Origin: Ardenticatenales bacterium
GTDB lineage: Bacteria; Chloroflexota; Anaerolineae; Promineifilales; UBA4811
DNA: 32,132 nt
Reading direction: 5' to 3'
Assembly: GCA_030593075.1 (NCBI GenBank)
Contig: JAUVHW010000013.1
Span: 1 to 32,132 of the forward strand
The stretch's first letter is position 1. Every line of letters begins with the position of its first letter. Under the pieces are notes generated by a model. That model was not told the origin of the DNA and did not search any database. It saw nothing but the letters and a program-made list of their open reading frames with translations. This document shows, one piece after another, positions 2,397-13,718 of the stretch. The position numbers were made by a program, and so were the translations under genes.

Positions 2397-3554
2397 CTAC
2401 TCAATGGACTCCAGTATATGCACCACAGCGGTGCCGCCAGACCCGCCAACGTTGAGGGTCATCCCCCGGCGGGCGTTGGGCACCTGACAATCTCCGGCCG
2501 CGCCGCGGAGCTGCTGCACGACCTCAACCGCCTGATAGACGCCCGTACCACCACCAACATCGCCCCGCGCCTTCAACCCGCCGCAGGTGCTGATGGGAAT
2601 TCGCCCTTGCGGGCCAATGTCCCCGTTCTTTGCCAGGGTCCATCCTTCACCGCGCTGGGCGAACCCAGCTGCCTCCAGCTGTAGCGCGGCAAACACGGTG
2701 AATGAATCGTGAAGCTCCAGCAGGTCAATGTCACCCGGGACGACACCGGCCGCGTGGTATGCCCGGCCGGCAGCGGTGTTGGCGGCCGCCAGAACGAGCG
2801 GGTCGGCCCTATCGTGAAGGGCCGGCGCATCGGTGACCAAGGAAGAAGCCGCCACCCGAACCGGACTGGGGACCATGTCCTTGGCCATTTCGGTCGGGCA
2901 GAGCACGACGGCCGCCGCACCATCGCCGGCCGGCGCCGAGTCAAAGAGGTTCACTGGGTCAGCCACCATGGACCCCTTGACGAAGGAGCTGGCCTTGAGC
3001 GGGCGGCGGAACATGGCGTACGGGTTGCCCACGGCATTGGCGTGCGCGTTGACACTAAAGCCCGCCATGTCGGCCAGTTCCACGCCGTTCTCATGCATGT
3101 AGCGGCGCATCAGCAGCGCCCCGAGGGCGGCCGAGGTGACGCCGTGCACCGCCTCATGGTCGGCATCGGCCGCCGCAACCTGGGCAGTCGTCCCAGAGGC
3201 GCCAACCATGTCGGTCACCTTTTCGACGCCCACCACCAGCACTACCTCGGCCGCCCCGCTCCGCACCGCCAGCACAGCTTGCCGCAGCGCCGCTCCGCCG
3301 GAGGCGTCGGCAGCCTCTACTGTCACCGCCTCCACCCCGCGCAGGCCGGCAAAGTCGACAATCAGCGCTCCCAGGTGCTGCTGGCGAGAAAGCGCGCCGG
3401 CGAGCATGTTGCCCACATAGACCGCCTCAACCGCCTCAGTGCCAGCATCCGCCAGCGCCGCATGGATCGCTTCCCACGCCAGGTGGCGCAGCGACGTCGT
3501 CCAGTGTTCGCCCACCTTGGTCTGGCCAATCCCGATGACGCTTACGTCTCTCAC
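2397..3554 (-). CDS. Thiolase-like protein (archaeal acetoacetyl-CoA thiolase-related), substituted active-site motifs
   Basis: VRDVSVIGIGQTKVGEHW...VYVGNMLAGALSRQQHLGALIVDFAGL...HDSFTVFAALQ...LNVGGSGGTAVVHIL. GTG start at 3554 preferred over the 3608 ORF start because the HMGS stop is at 3565. Confidence 0.88.
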   Translation of the reverse strand: MRDVSVIGIGQTKVGEHWTTSLRHLAWEAIHAALADAGTEAVEAVYVGNMLAGALSRQQHLGALIVDFAGLRGVEAVTVEAADASGGAALRQAVLAVRSGAAEVVLVVGVEKVTDMVGASGTTAQVAAADADHEAVHGVTSAALGALLMRRYMHENGVELADMAGFSVNAHANAVGNPYAMFRRPLKASSFVKGSMVADPVNLFDSAPAGDGAAAVVLCPTEMAKDMVPSPVRVAASSLVTDAPALHDRADPLVLAAANTAAGRAYHAAGVVPGDIDLLELHDSFTVFAALQLEAAGFAQRGEGWTLAKNGDIGPQGRIPISTCGGLKARGDVGGGTGVYQAVEVVQQLRGAAGDCQVPNARRGMTLNVGGSGGTAVVHILESIE

Positions 3555-3564
3555 GGGGCCGCCC

Positions 3565-4680
3565 TCACTTGGTCCGCAGCTTGCGCCGGTAGCGGGTGTA
3601 GGTGGCATAGTCGATCTCGGTGCGCCGAGCCACGTAATCCCGCGTCATCGGGGCTCCGTCGCGCCGTTCCAGGACCTTGTCTGTCACCGTCAGGTCGAAC
3701 GCATCTGCGCCGGCGCCGGAGCCATAGGAAACCATCAGTATGCGATCGTCAGGCTGGGTTATGTCCAGAATGCCCGTCAACCCTACCATGCACGACCCAG
3801 CGTAAGTGTTGCCAATGTCGCCCACCAGCAGACCGGGGGCAGTCTGTTCCTGCTCGAAACCCAGCATCTTGGCAGCCCGCTGCGGGAACTTGAGGTTGGG
3901 CTGATGGAACACAGCCCAAGTGTAATCCGACGCACTGGTCTCCAGCGCCTCCATCAGAGCCTTGGCGGCCGAGAGCGTGTGGTTGAAATAGCCCGGTTCG
4001 CCGGTGAAGCGATCGCCGTGCGAAGGATAGCTATCGTCCGGCCGGCGCCAGAAATCGGGCGTGTCCGTGACGTACGAGTAGGAAGCCGAGATGGTAGCCA
4101 GCGACTCCTCGGCCGGGCCAATCAAGATTGCAGCGCCGCCAGCGGCGGCCGTGTATTCCAGAGCGTCGCCCGGGCGGCTCTGAGCGGTGTCCATCCCAAT
4201 ACAGAGCGCATAGCGAGCCATGGCCGCCCCCACCAGGCCAATGGCGGCCTGCATCGCTTCGGTGCCCGCCTTGCAGGCAAACTCCCAGTCGGCCGCCTGG
4301 GTGTTGGGAACCGCGCCAATCGCTTCGGCCACGATGGTGCTGGTGGGCTTGACCGCATAGGGGTGGGATTCGCTTCCCACCCAGACAGCGCGGATGAGAG
4401 CCGGATCGATCCCGGCCCGCTTGAGCGCATTGCGCGCCGCCTCGACGGACATGGTCGCAACGTCCTCGTCCAGGCCAGGCACCGCCTTTTCGCGGACGGG
4501 AAGTCCCCCTTTGCCGTCGGTCCAGATGCGGGCGACTTCGCTGGCGGGAAGCCGGTAGCGCGGGATGTACGCACCATACCCCACAATGCCTACTGGGTAG
4601 TGCGGCCGCATCAGAGGCGACACTCCGACGGCAGGATGCGCTGCCGGGTGCGTGCTCTGCGCCGGTGCAGTGCCGCTCAT
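3565..4680 (-). CDS. Hydroxymethylglutaryl-CoA synthase (archaeal type)
   Basis: [44 protein letters not shown] (active-site Cys), [26 protein letters not shown] overlaps the upstream TGA (ATGA). Confidence 0.94.
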
Positions 4681-5276
4681 TGCAAGTCGCTCCTCACCAA
4701 CTCCTCGGCCCGCTCCAAACGAATAGTGCCCTCGTCGATCATCTGTCGAGCGACCTGGGATACCTGGTCGCCGGCCGCCCCCGCTGCGCTGGCGAGCTGG
4801 CGGGCGTGCAGGCGCATGTGCCCGGCTTGAATGCCGGCCGTGGCCAAGGCGCGCAGGGCTGCCAGGTTCTGGGCCAGGCCAACGGCCGCCATGACTTCGG
4901 CAAGCTCGCGGGCGGTGCTGACACCCAGGACCTTGAGCGCCACCCGAGCACCGGGGTGAACGCGCGTGGCTCCTCCCACGATGCCGACCGCCAAGGGGAG
5001 TTCGAGCCGGCCGCGCAGATCACCCGCCTCATCCTGCCACCACTTGCTGAGTGGCCGGTAGTGTCCATTCCTCGCAGCATAGGCGTGGGCTCCTGCTTCG
5101 ACCGCGCGCCAGTCGTTCCCGGTCGCCAGCACCACGGCGTCAATCCCGTTCATTATCCCCTTGTTGTGGGTGGCGGCGCGGTAGGGGTCGGCCGCTGCAA
5201 ACGCATAGGCCTCCACGATCCTCTCGACAACCAGGGAGCCGGGAGTATCTCCGGCCGCCAGCAGGGCGGCCGGCAC
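4677..5276 (-). CDS. HMG-CoA reductase (class II-like), C-terminal portion downstream of the in-frame TAG
   Basis: [37 protein letters not shown]...[12 protein letters not shown]...[11 protein letters not shown]. Same frame as the upstream ORF 5301-5963. GTG start is only a possible re-initiation site. Confidence 0.85.
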
Positions 5277-5300
5277 ACGCCCCTCGGCCCAGGCCAGCCG

Positions 5301-5963
5301 CTAATCAGCCAGGTTAGATAGGATGCGGAGGTTGACTCTCCCACCGGTGAGCTGCTCGATTCGGGGGGTCAGCGCCTCGCACGCCGTGTTGACTGTGTTG
5401 GCGCCCATCGCGTCCCGGCAGTCGTACAGCAACTCGACCACCATCATTGGGTCGGCTTCGGTGTCGGGCAGGTGCCGGACGCGCACATCTCGCGCTCCCC
5501 CGCCCAACTCAACGACCACCGGGTCCAACTCGTCGGCCTGCGCCATGAGTCCCGCCTTGGCCGAGAGCACGGCCGCCTCAGCCGCGGCGGGATCCTCCAC
5601 CCCCAACACCTGTATCTGGCCTATCATCACCGGTTCAGATGACGACGCGGAGATGCCCCTAGCCTCCCGAAGCAGCTTCGCAGCGTGGCTGGCGCCAGCC
5701 ACCACCGACGGCTCCTCGACCACCATGGGCACCAGGTAGTCGCGGCCGTTAATGCGAAAGTTGGCAGCCACGCCCATCGGCAAGGCATAGGTGCCCACAA
5801 CGTTCTCTATCATCAGGTCGGCCTGCTCGGGCTTGAGCCCCATCATGCCCTGCAGCACCGCTTGCTCGTCAGGCGACAGGCCAGCCCACTGGGCTACCTG
5901 CGTTGCCCGCTCCACAAGAGGGCTATTGTATAGGCCGGGTATGCGTGATGTGGCTGAGGCCAC
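5301..5963 (-). CDS. HMG-CoA reductase (class II-like), N-terminal portion, ending at in-frame TAG
   Basis: TSRIPGLYNSPLVERATQVAQWAGLS...MIENVVGTYALPMGVAANF...VNLRILSNLAD*. GTG start with GAGGAG SD upstream. Reading continues in frame after TAG as [14 protein letters not shown]... Confidence 0.88.
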   Translation of the reverse strand: MASATSRIPGLYNSPLVERATQVAQWAGLSPDEQAVLQGMMGLKPEQADLMIENVVGTYALPMGVAANFRINGRDYLVPMVVEEPSVVAGASHAAKLLREARGISASSSEPVMIGQIQVLGVEDPAAAEAAVLSAKAGLMAQADELDPVVVELGGGARDVRVRHLPDTEADPMMVVELLYDCRDAMGANTVNTACEALTPRIEQLTGGRVNLRILSNLAD

Positions 5964-6134: not shown

Positions 6135-7175
6135 CTAGTCGCCCAGCTTGGCGGCGAGGATGGCGGCAGTGTCGCCACCTCTCACCCGAATGCGGAGAAG
6201 CTCATAGCGGTCCTCCCAGATGTGGTGGGAGCCGGACCAGATGGTGACGGCACCCCACATGTTGATCTCCTTGAGGAACTCTATGACCTGCTCGTCGTAC
6301 CGGCTATGAGGGTAGGCAAAGAAGCGGGGGTAGTGGCCCGTGTGCCCCTGGATCGATTGCACGCTGCCCAGGATCTCCCAGACCAGGGAGTCGCGATCAG
6401 CGCCCTGCAGATTGGGATGGCTTCGGCTGTGCGGCTCAATGTCCATTCCGGCGGCAGCCATCTCCTCAATCTGAGACCAGGTCATGTACCGCTCCGAGTT
6501 GTGGTCCATCGGCTCGGTGAGGACAAAGAAGGTAGCGGTAAAGCCGTACTCCAGGAGCAGGGGAGAAGCATTCTCATAGTTGTCGCGATAGCCGTCGTCG
6601 AGAGTAATGATGACCGGCTTGTCCGGGAGCGGCCGGCCCCAGGTGAGCGCGTCCATCAAGTGGTAGAGATCGATGCTGGTGTAGCCGGCGGACGTGAGAT
6701 ACGCCAGGTGATCGGCGAAATGGGATGGTGAGACAGAGAGATCCAGCCGGTACTCGTCCGCATCTTCAGGTGGCTCGCTGACATAGTGGTACATCAAGAT
6801 GGGCACCTCGAATTCGCGATACACCCCATCGGGCGTGGGCAGCGGCGTGAAGGTAGGCGTTGGGCTAGGAGTGTAGGTCGGGGACGGCGTATGCGTAGGC
6901 GTCGGAGTCAGGCTCGGCGTCTGGGTGCTGGTCGGCGTCGGACTGGCGGTGCTCGTGACCGTAGACAGACGGCTGGCGGCCGCGGTCGGTGTCCAGGTGG
7001 GCTTGGGAGATGGCGTTGGAGTGGCAGAGGCCTTGGGCAGCAGATCACGGGCCGCTATCACGGCGCCCTTGCGGGTCGGACCGGGGTTGGCTGCCAACAG
7101 CGGTACTGCCACCAGTACAGCCGCCAGGGCGAAGCCCAGGAAGCCGAGTGCTGCCCTGGAGGAGACTCTATTCAC
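6135..7175 (-). CDS. Secreted/anchored polysaccharide deacetylase (CE4-like)
   Basis: VPILMYHYVSE, VIITLDDGYRDNY, FTATFFVLTEP, EPHSRSHPNL; N-terminal hydrophobic anchor and T/P/S linker. The ORF's 7220 start overlaps a good -10 box, so GTG at 7175 is preferred. Confidence 0.88.
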   Translation of the reverse strand: MNRVSSRAALGFLGFALAAVLVAVPLLAANPGPTRKGAVIAARDLLPKASATPTPSPKPTWTPTAAASRLSTVTSTASPTPTSTQTPSLTPTPTHTPSPTYTPSPTPTFTPLPTPDGVYREFEVPILMYHYVSEPPEDADEYRLDLSVSPSHFADHLAYLTSAGYTSIDLYHLMDALTWGRPLPDKPVIITLDDGYRDNYENASPLLLEYGFTATFFVLTEPMDHNSERYMTWSQIEEMAAAGMDIEPHSRSHPNLQGADRDSLVWEILGSVQSIQGHTGHYPRFFAYPHSRYDEQVIEFLKEINMWGAVTIWSGSHHIWEDRYELLRIRVRGGDTAAILAAKLGD

Positions 7176-7208
7176 GACGATCCACTTGAATAACGAGATT
7201 GCTCGCAG

Positions 7209-7236
7209 ATTATAGAACACAAAGAACGCGAGTCAA
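7209..7236 (-). promoter_or_regulatory. Sigma70-like promoter for polysaccharide deacetylase
   Basis: Minus strand TTGACT-N16-TATAAT. Confidence 0.65.
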
Positions 7237-7387
7237 GGCTCAGCGCCGGCCGAGAGGGTGCCGAAAACAGATGTGGCGCCATTCCGGCTGCAGTTCTGCG
7301 CTGCGAGGGGGAGACAGGGAGCCCTTGGCGGGCTGATATCCAGCAGCCTCATACCCAGGTGTTGGAAGGTAAGGTACAATTCCCGCT

Positions 7388-8497
7388 GTGATGAACCCGG
7401 CAAGAACCCGTGTCGTGGTAGCCATGAGCGGCGGAGTGGATAGCTCGGTCGCGGCCGCTCTGCTGGCCAAGGCTGACTACCAGGTGGAAGGGCTGATGCT
7501 GCGGCTGTGGAGCGAGCCGGCCTCAGACGCTGGCGGCCGGCCGGAGAACCGCTGCTGCACACCGAGCCAGCTCGCCGATGCACAGTCCGTGGCCCAGACA
7601 CTGGGCATCCCTTTTCGCACTCTCGACGCGGTCGAGCTGTTCCGGAGCACAGTTGTCGAGAGCTATATCGGCGCTCACGCGGCCGGGCTGACTCCCAACC
7701 CTTGCGTGGTGTGCAACCGGCGGGTCCGATTCGGCTTTCTGCTGGACCAGGTGAGGGACTGGGGAGCGCAGTACCTGGCAACCGGCCATTACGTCCGCGT
7801 CCAGCAGAGCGGCCCCAGCTATCAGATCCTGCGCGGCGCCGATGCGGCCAAGGACCAGTCCTACGTGCTGTACTCGCTGAACCAGTCTCGCCTCCCCCAC
7901 CTGTTGTTCCCCCTGGGCGACTACACCAAGGCGGAGGTCCGGGCGCTGGCGCGGGAGTTTGGGCTGCCGGTGGCGGACAAGGCCGATAGCCAGGACGTCT
8001 GCTTCCTGGCAGACGGCGACTATCGCCGGTTTCTCCGCCAACAGGCACCGGACGCCATGCGGCCGGGACCGATCCTGGATCTTGGCGGGAATGTGGTAGG
8101 AAAGCACCAGGGGTTGGCCGCCTACACCATTGGCCAGCGAAAGAGACTCGGGATCAGCGCACCGAGCCCGCTCTATGTTCTGGCGACCGATCCGGCCCGC
8201 AACGCGCTGGTTGTGGGCCCCAGGAACGCTCTCGGCCGCCGAACCCTCACCACCGTGGACACCCGGTGGGTCGCCGGCCGGCCGCCGGCGGGGGATACCC
8301 CCTTCCAGGCCGAGATCAAGATCCGCTATCGGGGCCGGCTACTCCCGGCCGCCGTGACCCCTGGAAAGGACGGCAAGGCCACCGCCCGCTTTGAAGAGAC
8401 CCTCTCGGACATCACGCCTGGCCAGGCGGCCGTGTTCTACCAGGGCAGCACCTGCCTTGGCGGAGGGACAATCGCGCCCTGGGAGGAATCGACATGA
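7388..8497 (+). CDS. mnmA: tRNA-specific 2-thiouridylase MnmA
   Basis: VVVAMSGGVDSSVAAALL PP-loop; TPNPCVVCNRRVRFGFLL; ATGHYVRV; DQSYVLYSL; SQDVCFL. Confidence 0.96.
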   Translation: MMNPARTRVVVAMSGGVDSSVAAALLAKADYQVEGLMLRLWSEPASDAGGRPENRCCTPSQLADAQSVAQTLGIPFRTLDAVELFRSTVVESYIGAHAAGLTPNPCVVCNRRVRFGFLLDQVRDWGAQYLATGHYVRVQQSGPSYQILRGADAAKDQSYVLYSLNQSRLPHLLFPLGDYTKAEVRALAREFGLPVADKADSQDVCFLADGDYRRFLRQQAPDAMRPGPILDLGGNVVGKHQGLAAYTIGQRKRLGISAPSPLYVLATDPARNALVVGPRNALGRRTLTTVDTRWVAGRPPAGDTPFQAEIKIRYRGRLLPAAVTPGKDGKATARFEETLSDITPGQAAVFYQGSTCLGGGTIAPWEEST

Positions 8498-10407: not shown

Positions 10408-11694
10408 ATGCGGATATACCTCGGCTCGATTGGCTGCAGGCTGAACCAGAGTGAGATCGAGAGCCTTGCTCGCCGCTTGGCGAGCGAGGGGCACTGCATC
10501 GCCCTCTCCCCAGCCGAATCAGCTATCTGCATCCTGAACACCTGCGCGGTCACGCGCAGGGCGGCGGCCAAATCGCGCCAGGCTGCCCGCCGCTGCCACC
10601 GGGCTGCTCCCCACGCGGCGGTGCTTCTCACCGGCTGCTACGCCACTCTCTTTCCGGCCGAGGCTCGTGCACTGCCCGGCGTAGTACGGGTGGTCAGCAA
10701 CCCAGAGAAGGCCAGCCTACTTCCAATGGTAGAGTCGCTAGGAGGCGCCGGCGACGGGGCTCAACTGGGTCCCAAGCCGCGGCCGGATGAGTGCGGACGG
10801 CTGCCAGGCGGGCGGACCCGCGCCTTTGTCAAGGTGCAAGATGGCTGCGACAACCATTGCACCTACTGCGTCACCAGAGTGGCGCGCGGCCTAGGCCGCA
10901 GCCGGCCGAAGGCCGAGGTGATGGCCGAGATCCAGGCGCTGGATGCGGCCGGCTATCAAGAGGTCGTCCTGACCGGCGTCCACCTGGGAAGCTACGGGCC
11001 GGAGACCAGCCTGCGCGAACTGGTCGAAAGCATCCTGGCCCAGACCAGCGTGGCTCGCATCAGGCTCTCGTCGCTGGAGCCGTGGGACCTGGAGCCAGGA
11101 TTCTTTGCTCTCTGGCAGGACCCTCGTCTTTGCCGGCAACTGCACCTGCCCCTGCAGAGCGGATCAGCGAGCGTCCTGCGCCGCATGGGGCGGCAGATCA
11201 CTCCTGAAGGGTACCGGGCGCTAGCCACGGCCGCTCTGGATGCCATCCCAGACCTGGCCCTGACGACCGATGTGATGGTAGGCTTTCCCGGCGAGACCGA
11301 AGAGGAGTTTGAGGACAGCCTGAGCTTGGTGCGCGAATCGCGCCTGGCGCGGCTCCACGTCTTCGGCTACTCTAGCCGGCCGGGCACGGCCGCCGCCCGG
11401 ATGCCGGGGCACCTTGCACCGGACGTCATCCGCGAGAGAAGCCGCTTGATGCGGGAACTGGGCCGCCAGAAACAGGAGCAGTTCATACAGCGATTCGTGG
11501 GCCGCACCATGGAGGTGCTCTGGGAGTCCCCGGCCGGCGACGGCCTGTGGCGCGGTCACACTGACCACTACATCCAGGTGACGGCTGCTAGCGACCTTCC
11601 TCTGAAGAATTCGCGGACGCCAACACTCCTGACCGGCCTGCGGCCGGGCGGGATGCACGGGAGAGTGATGCCAGAGACCCAGGAGGGCGCGTGA
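10408..11694 (+). CDS. mtaB: MiaB-like tRNA methylthiotransferase (MtaB type)
   Basis: YLGSIGCRLNQSEIES, NTCAVTRRAAAKSRQ, TGCYA, QDGCDNHCTYCVTRVARG radical-SAM motif. ORF extends to 10372; ATG 10408 (MRIYLG) preferred. Confidence 0.94.
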   Translation: MRIYLGSIGCRLNQSEIESLARRLASEGHCIALSPAESAICILNTCAVTRRAAAKSRQAARRCHRAAPHAAVLLTGCYATLFPAEARALPGVVRVVSNPEKASLLPMVESLGGAGDGAQLGPKPRPDECGRLPGGRTRAFVKVQDGCDNHCTYCVTRVARGLGRSRPKAEVMAEIQALDAAGYQEVVLTGVHLGSYGPETSLRELVESILAQTSVARIRLSSLEPWDLEPGFFALWQDPRLCRQLHLPLQSGSASVLRRMGRQITPEGYRALATAALDAIPDLALTTDVMVGFPGETEEEFEDSLSLVRESRLARLHVFGYSSRPGTAAARMPGHLAPDVIRERSRLMRELGRQKQEQFIQRFVGRTMEVLWESPAGDGLWRGHTDHYIQVTAASDLPLKNSRTPTLLTGLRPGGMHGRVMPETQEGA

Positions 11695-13718
11695 CCACGG
11701 CCGGCAAAGAGAGCCCAGTCCCCCTGGACACAGAATTCGACGTCGCCCTGGCCAACCAACTAGCCCACCTCGAATCCTACAACAAGCACCTCTACCGCCC
11801 CAACAGCTACCTGCACAAGTGGTGGGCCCGGCGCTGCGGCAGCACCTTTCGCCTCATCTTGAAGGCTCTGGCGGAGGACCCGCAGGAGCGGGACTATTAC
11901 GCAGCAGGCGGCCTGAAGGGCAAGGTCATCCTCGACCCCATGATCGGGGGTGGCACCGTACTACACGAAGCGATCCGCCTGGGGGCCAACGTTATCGGCG
12001 CTGACCTGGACCCCATCCCGGTCCTGCAGGCCCGCGCCACTCTGAGCCCCTGCCCTCTGGAGAAGCTCGAAGCTGCCTTTGACCAGCTCATGGTGAGTCT
12101 GCGCCGGGAGCTGCGGCCGCTCTTTGCCACCTCCTGCCCCGAGTGCCATCAGGCCACCGAGTTCCGATTCGTGCTCTGCGGAACACGCCGCGCCTGCCGG
12201 TGTGGTCCGGCCCTGCTAGTAGACTCCACGGTGCTGCGGCACGAATCGGACGGTACAAGGGTCCGCATCTGCCCCAGTTGCCGCACCATCGCCCGCCACC
12301 AGGGGCGCGCGGCCGGTCACTGTACCCACTGCCCGCCCGGCCAGCCCAGGCCGCCGCTAGTGGAAAAGGGGAACCGGAAATGCAGCGCCTGCGGAGCGCC
12401 CTACCAGGAGGACAGGCAGGCCCCCTTTTACGCCCGGTACGAGCCATTCGCGGTGGCCGGCCGGTGCCCGCAACACGGCCTTTTCTTCGCTGCCCCCACG
12501 GCGGCCGACCTGGCTCTCATAGAGCGCGCCAACAGCATGAGATCGACGGTCGAGCAGGCCTTGCGCTCTCCCGTACCGCCCATGCAGGCGGACCGTCCCG
12601 GTCCGGACGATTTCAGGATCAAGTCGGGCCCCAAGTCGGCCGACCTGCTCGGCCGGGGGATAGCCAGCTATCTGGACCTCTTTTCCAGTCGCCAGCTCCT
12701 GGTTATGCAGCAGGCCATCCGGCAGTTGGCTGCTTTCGAGCCTCTTGTCCGTCTCAATCTGGCCTTGCTGGTTTCCACCTCCCTGGAATTCAACTCGATG
12801 CTCTGTGGCTACAAAGGGGTCAACAAGCGCCGGCCGGGAGCGGTACGGCATGCTTTCTCCCATCACGCCTACTCTTTTCCCCACACCGCGCTGGAAAACA
12901 ACCCCCTCTACCCGGCGAGGGCTTCGGGCACCCTGGAGAGGCTGTTCCACGACCGCATACGCCGGGCTCGGCGCTGGGCTGATCGGCCTGTAGAGCGCGT
13001 GATCAAGGATGGGTCCCCCGTGACCCAGCCCGTGGACGAGGTAGACAGCGGCGTGGAAGTGAACCGGGCGGAGGGGCTGCGCCAGGGAGAGCGCCGCTTC
13101 CTGCTCATTCAGGCGCCATCTCAATCGCTCGCCCTCGAATCCGACAGCGCAGATGCCATCGTCACCGACCCGCCCTACTTTGACAGCGTGCAGTACAGCG
13201 ACCTGGCGGCGTTTTTCCACGTCTGGCTGAGAAGGATGCTCCCGGACGAGGCCAACTGGGACATCGATCTCGCAGAGTCCGCGGTGAACCCTCGCTCCGG
13301 CGGCGGGGAACAGTACACTCGGGTTCTGGGCGCCATCTTTTCCGAGTGCCACCGGGTCCTGCGTAAACCCCACGGGCGCCTGGTCTTCACTTTCCACCAC
13401 CGGCACAGCAGGGGATGGGCCGCCCTCACACGCGCCCTCAAGCGGGCCGGCTTTCGGCTGCGCAGCCGTTACGTAGTGCACTCAGAGAGCCCCGCATCGG
13501 TGCACATAGCCAACCTCAACTCCCTGACGCACGATGCAATACTGGTGCTGGCGCCGGCCGAGGCTGTACCGGCGCAAGGGTGGCAGCTTCCTTCCACGGT
13601 GGACAAGAGTGACAGCCGCCGCTTCTGCCAGGACTGCTCCTCCGCGCTGGGGTGGATGCTGGATGCTGGTCTCGACGGAGCCGAGATCGAACAGCAGTGG
13701 ACGCAACTCCTCGCGTAG
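11691..13718 (+). CDS. DNA methylase with Cys-rich (Zn-binding) insert, DUF1156/COG1743-like
   Basis: SYNKHLYRPNSYLHKWWARRCGSTFRLIL, DPMIGGGTVLHEAIRLGANVIGADLDP, TDPPYFDSVQYSDL; multiple CxxC pairs (CPEC, CPSC, CTHC, CSAC). GTGA overlap with the mtaB stop. Confidence 0.88.
   Translation: MTTAGKESPVPLDTEFDVALANQLAHLESYNKHLYRPNSYLHKWWARRCGSTFRLILKALAEDPQERDYYAAGGLKGKVILDPMIGGGTVLHEAIRLGANVIGADLDPIPVLQARATLSPCPLEKLEAAFDQLMVSLRRELRPLFATSCPECHQATEFRFVLCGTRRACRCGPALLVDSTVLRHESDGTRVRICPSCRTIARHQGRAAGHCTHCPPGQPRPPLVEKGNRKCSACGAPYQEDRQAPFYARYEPFAVAGRCPQHGLFFAAPTAADLALIERANSMRSTVEQALRSPVPPMQADRPGPDDFRIKSGPKSADLLGRGIASYLDLFSSRQLLVMQQAIRQLAAFEPLVRLNLALLVSTSLEFNSMLCGYKGVNKRRPGAVRHAFSHHAYSFPHTALENNPLYPARASGTLERLFHDRIRRARRWADRPVERVIKDGSPVTQPVDEVDSGVEVNRAEGLRQGERRFLLIQAPSQSLALESDSADAIVTDPPYFDSVQYSDLAAFFHVWLRRMLPDEANWDIDLAESAVNPRSGGGEQYTRVLGAIFSECHRVLRKPHGRLVFTFHHRHSRGWAALTRALKRAGFRLRSRYVVHSESPASVHIANLNSLTHDAILVLAPAEAVPAQGWQLPSTVDKSDSRRFCQDCSSALGWMLDAGLDGAEIEQQWTQLLA

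Follow-up and report, generated by a model that had tools for sequence, protein, structure and literature searches.

The closest described relatives of the gene considered here are the class II HMG-CoA reductases (HMGRs) of Pseudomonas mevalonii (PmHMGR; PDB 1qax) and Delftia acidovorans (6dio). HMGR of this class is an intertwined dimer whose two chains both contribute to the active sites (PMC10070635). For the class Chloroflexi, Dellas et al. 2013 (PMC3857490) described the absence of the DXP pathway and the presence of the alternative decarboxylase/IPK branch of the mevalonate pathway. Belinky et al. 2021 (PMC7918605) described short-lived in-frame stops in bacterial genes, with TAG at a Gln codon (CAG) as their worked example; by their findings, most of these stops have lifetimes similar to those of population polymorphisms, and many of the raw cases are artefacts.

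We analyzed a window of 32,132 nucleotides (contig JAUVHW010000013.1 of the Ardenticatenales bacterium assembly GCA_030593075.1), which contains a class II HMGR gene. Like the enzymes of P. mevalonii and D. acidovorans, its product aligns over the full length and conserves the catalytic residues; unlike PmHMGR, which has Leu220 at the site, the gene has an in-frame TAG. Its parts are as follows.

4677 to 5963, minus strand: class II HMGR gene, a single frame with one TAG inside
5304 to 5963, minus strand: N-terminal part, residues 1–220, which holds catalytic Glu84
5301 to 5303, minus strand: in-frame TAG, codon 221 (PmHMGR Leu220)
4677 to 5300, minus strand: C-terminal part, residues 222–428, which holds catalytic Lys268, Asp284, and His382

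The frame runs on the minus strand from a GTG at 5963 to a TGA at 4679–4677 and comprises 428 codons, with the TAG as its sole interruption. When read through, the 428 residues match the Pfam HMG-CoA_red domain in one stretch (E 7.7e-109; positions 5–368 of 368), and the alignment with 1qax is gap-free at the TAG site, so that one codon has been replaced with no insertion or loss; a sequence-only reading of this DNA had claimed as much, describing a TAG that splits HMGR without an indel. All four catalytic residues (E84, K268, D284, and H382) are kept in the alignments, corresponding to Glu 83, Lys 267, Asp 283, and His 381 in PmHMGR numbering, and they lie on both sides of the TAG, as that reading had also noted. 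Each half fits the degradative model TIGR00532 much more closely than it fits the models for NADP class I. The one feature of a class II HMGR that the assembled sequence lacks is a single uninterrupted frame, which is broken by the TAG at codon 221. A structure model with Gln at this position has a mean pLDDT of 88.9 and a TM-score of ~0.93 against PmHMGR crystal structures, and it places residue 221 in a short loop ahead of a strand formed by residues 223–230.

The interpretation that we consider probable is that of an isolated, recent nonsense change in an ordinary HMGR gene, due either to a consensus error or to an allele that is minor or transient in the population, with no special decoding required. 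We compared the gene with those of 58 related genomes, 49 of which gave an HMGR match, and with ~110 homologous loci. Inner stops were absent from the HMGRs of these 49, all of which are open apart from genes cut by contig ends, and a stop at the position of codon 221 was found in none of the ~110 loci. The residue at this position varies among the relatives (Arg 53, Leu 19, Gln 17, Lys 12, His 4, Glu 2, Asn 1, Tyr 1); in G003, the nearest relative, the codon is CAA (Gln), and in G001 it is GAG (Glu). The position hit by the TAG is a tolerant one, and several codons that are seen in this column (CAG, GAG, AAG, and TTG), common ones such as CAG among them, differ from TAG by a single base. The earlier description of a TAG within a conserved SNLAD-x-RLA segment thus stands for the flanking motif and fails for the stopped position, which is variable. 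The best named HMGR matches come mostly from Anaerolineae and other Chloroflexota (one of the related genomes, G044, is an Anaerolineae assembly), which makes that phylum the probable source of the window. As in the cases of Belinky et al. 2021 (PMC7918605), a single nonsense change lies in an otherwise constrained gene; those cases, however, were required to show the stop in at least two species, whereas the HMGR TAG occurs in one genome and does not pass this filter.

Conservation of the TAG at this codon in related genomes, by which programmed readthrough or recoding would be recognized, was not observed, and a search of the orthologues for either a conserved TAG or a split gene, as the sequence-only reading had proposed, yielded neither in the ~110 loci. 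One apparent split HMGR, on contigs C361 and C178 of G003, was rejected: the ends of the two contigs share an overlap of exactly 127 bases, and joining them gives an open frame that has Gln at the site, which identifies an assembly break and not a split gene.

A split enzyme had been suggested on the basis of a GTG at 5276 with GAGG five bases upstream, both of which are indeed found in the sequence.

5274 to 5276, minus strand: GTG, candidate re-initiation codon (residue 230), with GAGG at 5285–5282

Translation would stop at the TAG and restart at this GTG, and the two fragments, between which the catalytic residues are divided, would assemble into an enzyme. With this arrangement, residues 221–229 would be missing from both fragments, which consequently would not jointly hold the whole conserved domain; these residues form a predicted β-strand and include the nearly invariant Arg222 and Ala226, and their loss makes a split enzyme unlikely. 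Given the intertwined dimer (PMC10070635), the loss of a core strand would probably be hard to tolerate. Of 111 intact relatives, 60 likewise have a start-like codon at this place, so the GTG at 5276 needs no explanation, and no relative has a split gene, the G003 case being a contig break. We regard a split enzyme as highly improbable.

Selection on the two halves was compared next to the nearest relative and to the wider set of homologs. The dN/dS of HMGR against G003 was 0.117 before the TAG and 0.099 after it, values that are rough since synonymous sites are near saturation. At columns conserved in at least 97% of sequences, there was no deviation after the TAG and there were two before it (Gly102Arg and Gly171Asp).

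5658 to 5660, minus strand: codon 102, Arg (AGG); Gly in 108 of 109 relatives
5451 to 5453, minus strand: codon 171, Asp (GAC); Gly in 107 of 109 relatives

These two substitutions could reflect a real recent relaxation of selection; two such deviations in the N-terminal half are equalled by 8 of the 109 relatives, however, so that this HMGR is not exceptional. To judge from the alignments, the half after the TAG is constrained like any intact HMGR, which agrees with the earlier observation that the C-terminal half is not decayed. That reading would have given way had close relatives carried an intact HMGR while the C-terminal half here was under relaxed selection; such relatives were found, but the relaxation was not. 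The relaxed selection after the TAG that would mark a pseudogene is thus not seen (dN/dS 0.10), although a very recent pseudogene would look alike. The constraint indicates that the region was translated until very recently or still is, and hence that the change is recent or the sequence wrong; by itself, it does not tell a recent mutation from an error or from readthrough that is efficient.

The gene's setting bears on this choice. HMGR is the first gene of a mevalonate cluster, followed by an HMG-CoA synthase and then a thiolase-domain protein.

3565 to 4680, minus strand: HMG-CoA synthase (archaeal-type), directly downstream of HMGR (NF003274, E 9e-162)
2397 to 3608, minus strand: thiolase-domain protein, downstream of the synthase (NF004720, E 6e-129)

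The ATG of the synthase overlaps the end of HMGR, the synthase and thiolase genes overlap as well, and neither a promoter-like nor a terminator-like site was detected near the cluster. The genome has one HMGR, with no second copy (ESSENTIALITY). The MEP pathway enzymes IspH and DXR are absent from it, and IspH is absent also from 56 relatives, in agreement with the published lack of the DXP pathway in the class Chloroflexi (PMC3857490); like the Chloroflexi described there, this bacterium appears to make isoprenoids by mevalonate, with no DXP (MEP) pathway. A mevalonate kinase is present as one clear gene (C175), and a mevalonate-type decarboxylase is present but cut by a contig end; no inner stops were found in the remaining mevalonate genes tested. 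Two further mevalonate-kinase-like genes lie on C200 (L171) and C154 (L172).

With a single HMGR and no MEP pathway, cells that had truly lost HMGR should die unless they could scavenge mevalonate or isoprenoids, which argues that the living cells have an intact enzyme, however they come by it. This expectation favors a consensus error or a transient allele and leaves leaky readthrough as the main biological alternative. That the TAG is a real and very recent null mutation, in a lineage that has lost HMGR and scavenges mevalonate or isoprenoids, we consider unlikely: the two unusual substitutions at conserved glycines and the other interrupted genes of the genome would suit it, while the remaining mevalonate genes tested are present and free of inner stops, the part after the TAG shows no decay, and no alternative pathway was found. 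Since mevalonate is the only visible isoprenoid route and this the sole HMGR, the TAG is most likely an error or a minor or transient allele. In the probable case of an isolated nonsense change, the locus would encode an ordinary class II HMGR whose assembled sequence carries, at codon 221, one recent nonsense substitution of a single base; the fragmentary assembly most likely has a consensus error here, or else the allele is a minor or transient one in the population. The TAG base would be wrong or transient, and the living cells would carry an intact HMGR and presumably produce it at full length, with no special decoding. A literature search yielded no usable report of premature stops that arise from consensus errors in metagenome assemblies.

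We also considered whether TAG is read as a sense codon in this bacterium. TAG ends 174 of the 383 long ORFs sampled, and the four stops in the window cited earlier as normal uses of TAG (13718, 17179, 17639, and 28219) are all TAG; together with the differing residues replaced at the in-frame stops described below, this upholds the view that global reassignment is unlikely. Both RF1 and RF2 are present in the genome. The suppressor tRNA proposed by the sequence-only reading did not materialize: no tRNA with the anticodon CUA is among the 55 tRNA genes recovered, although, because this set is incomplete (outside tRNA arrays, no Ala, His, or Ile tRNA was seen), the absence is only moderate evidence. 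PylS is absent from the genome searched, and shuffled sequences fold as stably as the RNA that follows the HMGR TAG. If TAG were recoded in a programmed way, through a pyrrolysine system or a dedicated suppressor tRNA, such a suppressor could be missing from the incomplete tRNA set, and four of the six in-frame stops found in the genome are TAG; against this reading are the lack of a tRNA-CUA in that set and of PylS, the presence of RF1, a TAG share as expected by chance, the differing residues replaced, and the lack of conservation, and we judge it very improbable.

Low-level readthrough may nevertheless occur. The TAG could be real and fixed, with ordinary leaky readthrough (for example, near-cognate reading of UAG by tRNA-Gln) giving enough full-length HMGR, perhaps at a lower enzyme level. 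HMGR should be essential, the part after the TAG is fully constrained, position 221 accepts many residues including Gln, and short-lived readthrough has been suggested to be frequent in bacteria (PMC7918605), all of which speak for this possibility. Yet the TAG is conserved in no relative, no suppressor was found while RF1 is present, and, with TAG among the major normal stops, many proteins would be extended if general readthrough were strong. On balance we find leaky readthrough unlikely, if the least so of the alternatives to an isolated nonsense change. A stricter form, in which a fixed amber codon in the sole HMGR is read efficiently by an unassembled suppressor or near-cognate tRNA, making isoprenoids dependent on termination efficiency, seems to us quite improbable. 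Were the TAG real and fixed, an essential gene in a wild bacterium would be expressed only via stop-codon readthrough, an unusual and testable dependence.

The draft genome, which consists of 422 contigs, was also scanned for other genes in which a coding signal runs in frame through a stop, using a six-frame Markov score on 1.25 Mb sampled by region (139 stretches, about a third of the genome); 60 junctions were put to Pfam. In this sample, a Pfam domain spans an in-frame stop in five genes, HMGR and four others.

C112 (L204), 10502 to 12106, minus strand: L-lactate permease, divergent, with two in-frame TAGs
C124 (L207), 6917 to 7702, plus strand: MBL-fold hydrolase, AHL-lactonase-like, with one TAG at 7316
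C400 (L271), 2507, minus strand: PDDEXK_3 protein, with TAA
C304:20001-40000 (L294), 3372, minus strand: DsbA/Thioredoxin_4-like protein, with TGA

With HMGR included, the interrupted genes contain six stops (4 TAG, 1 TAA, and 1 TGA), and random substitutions in the codons of this genome predict 57–60% TAG, 21% TGA, and 21% TAA. The observed 4:1:1 is close to this expectation, which argues for a low background of isolated nonsense changes and not for a reassigned codon. Nor are the residues replaced the same (Tyr/Trp and Arg/Lys for the permease, Cys for the DsbA-like protein), so no single reassignment explains the stops; recoding would be expected to show an excess of TAG and one consistent residue replaced, and neither is seen (4 of 6 TAG against 57–60%). 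A hint of recoding among the raw candidates, in which 43 of 77 stops were TAG, was discarded, since most were neighboring same-frame genes by Pfam and the codon expectation removed the excess. Among 76 ABC-transporter domain matches, no interruption was found. If all the stops were consensus errors, the error rate would be ~1.5e-4 per base, a rough extrapolation from ~18 stops per genome and 3% of random changes being nonsense, with only part of the candidate junctions tested.

Of the explanations offered in the sequence-only reading, a nonsense mutation or assembly error is therefore the best supported, given a stop found in no relative, a variable residue, and at least six in-frame stops with a random spectrum; a dedicated suppressor is unsupported, albeit on an incomplete tRNA set, and a split enzyme is unlikely. 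A caution also follows: isolated in-frame stops in conserved genes of a 422-contig draft are explained, in both rate and spectrum, by random errors or transient mutations, and a single one should not be taken as recoding without reads or a second genome.

A few of these loci have features of their own. The tRNA genes of the genome include an array on contig C309 (L155, 20 kb), which is binned with the genome and phage-like, having 21 tRNA genes in <6 kb as well as a large terminase-like ORF and an RtcB-like protein (both named by eye); this array, which looks phage-borne, was considered as a source of a suppressor and contains none. The TGA of the DsbA-like gene sits exactly on the first cysteine of the CxxC motif (SDFG-TGA-GYCKQL), which would suit a selenoprotein of the UxxC type. 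The genome yielded no true tRNA-Sec, a match to the tRNA-Sec model at C280 being a tRNA-Ser, and the fold after the TGA lacks significance; a change from Cys to stop is therefore as likely as a selenoprotein. True pseudogenes may be among the interrupted genes. The lactate permease has no frameshift, and its TAGs fall at the Tyr/Trp and Arg/Lys columns (the second placed from the alignment); its relatives are only distant (~28% identity) and C329 carries a paralogue that is intact, as would suit an ordinary pseudogene.
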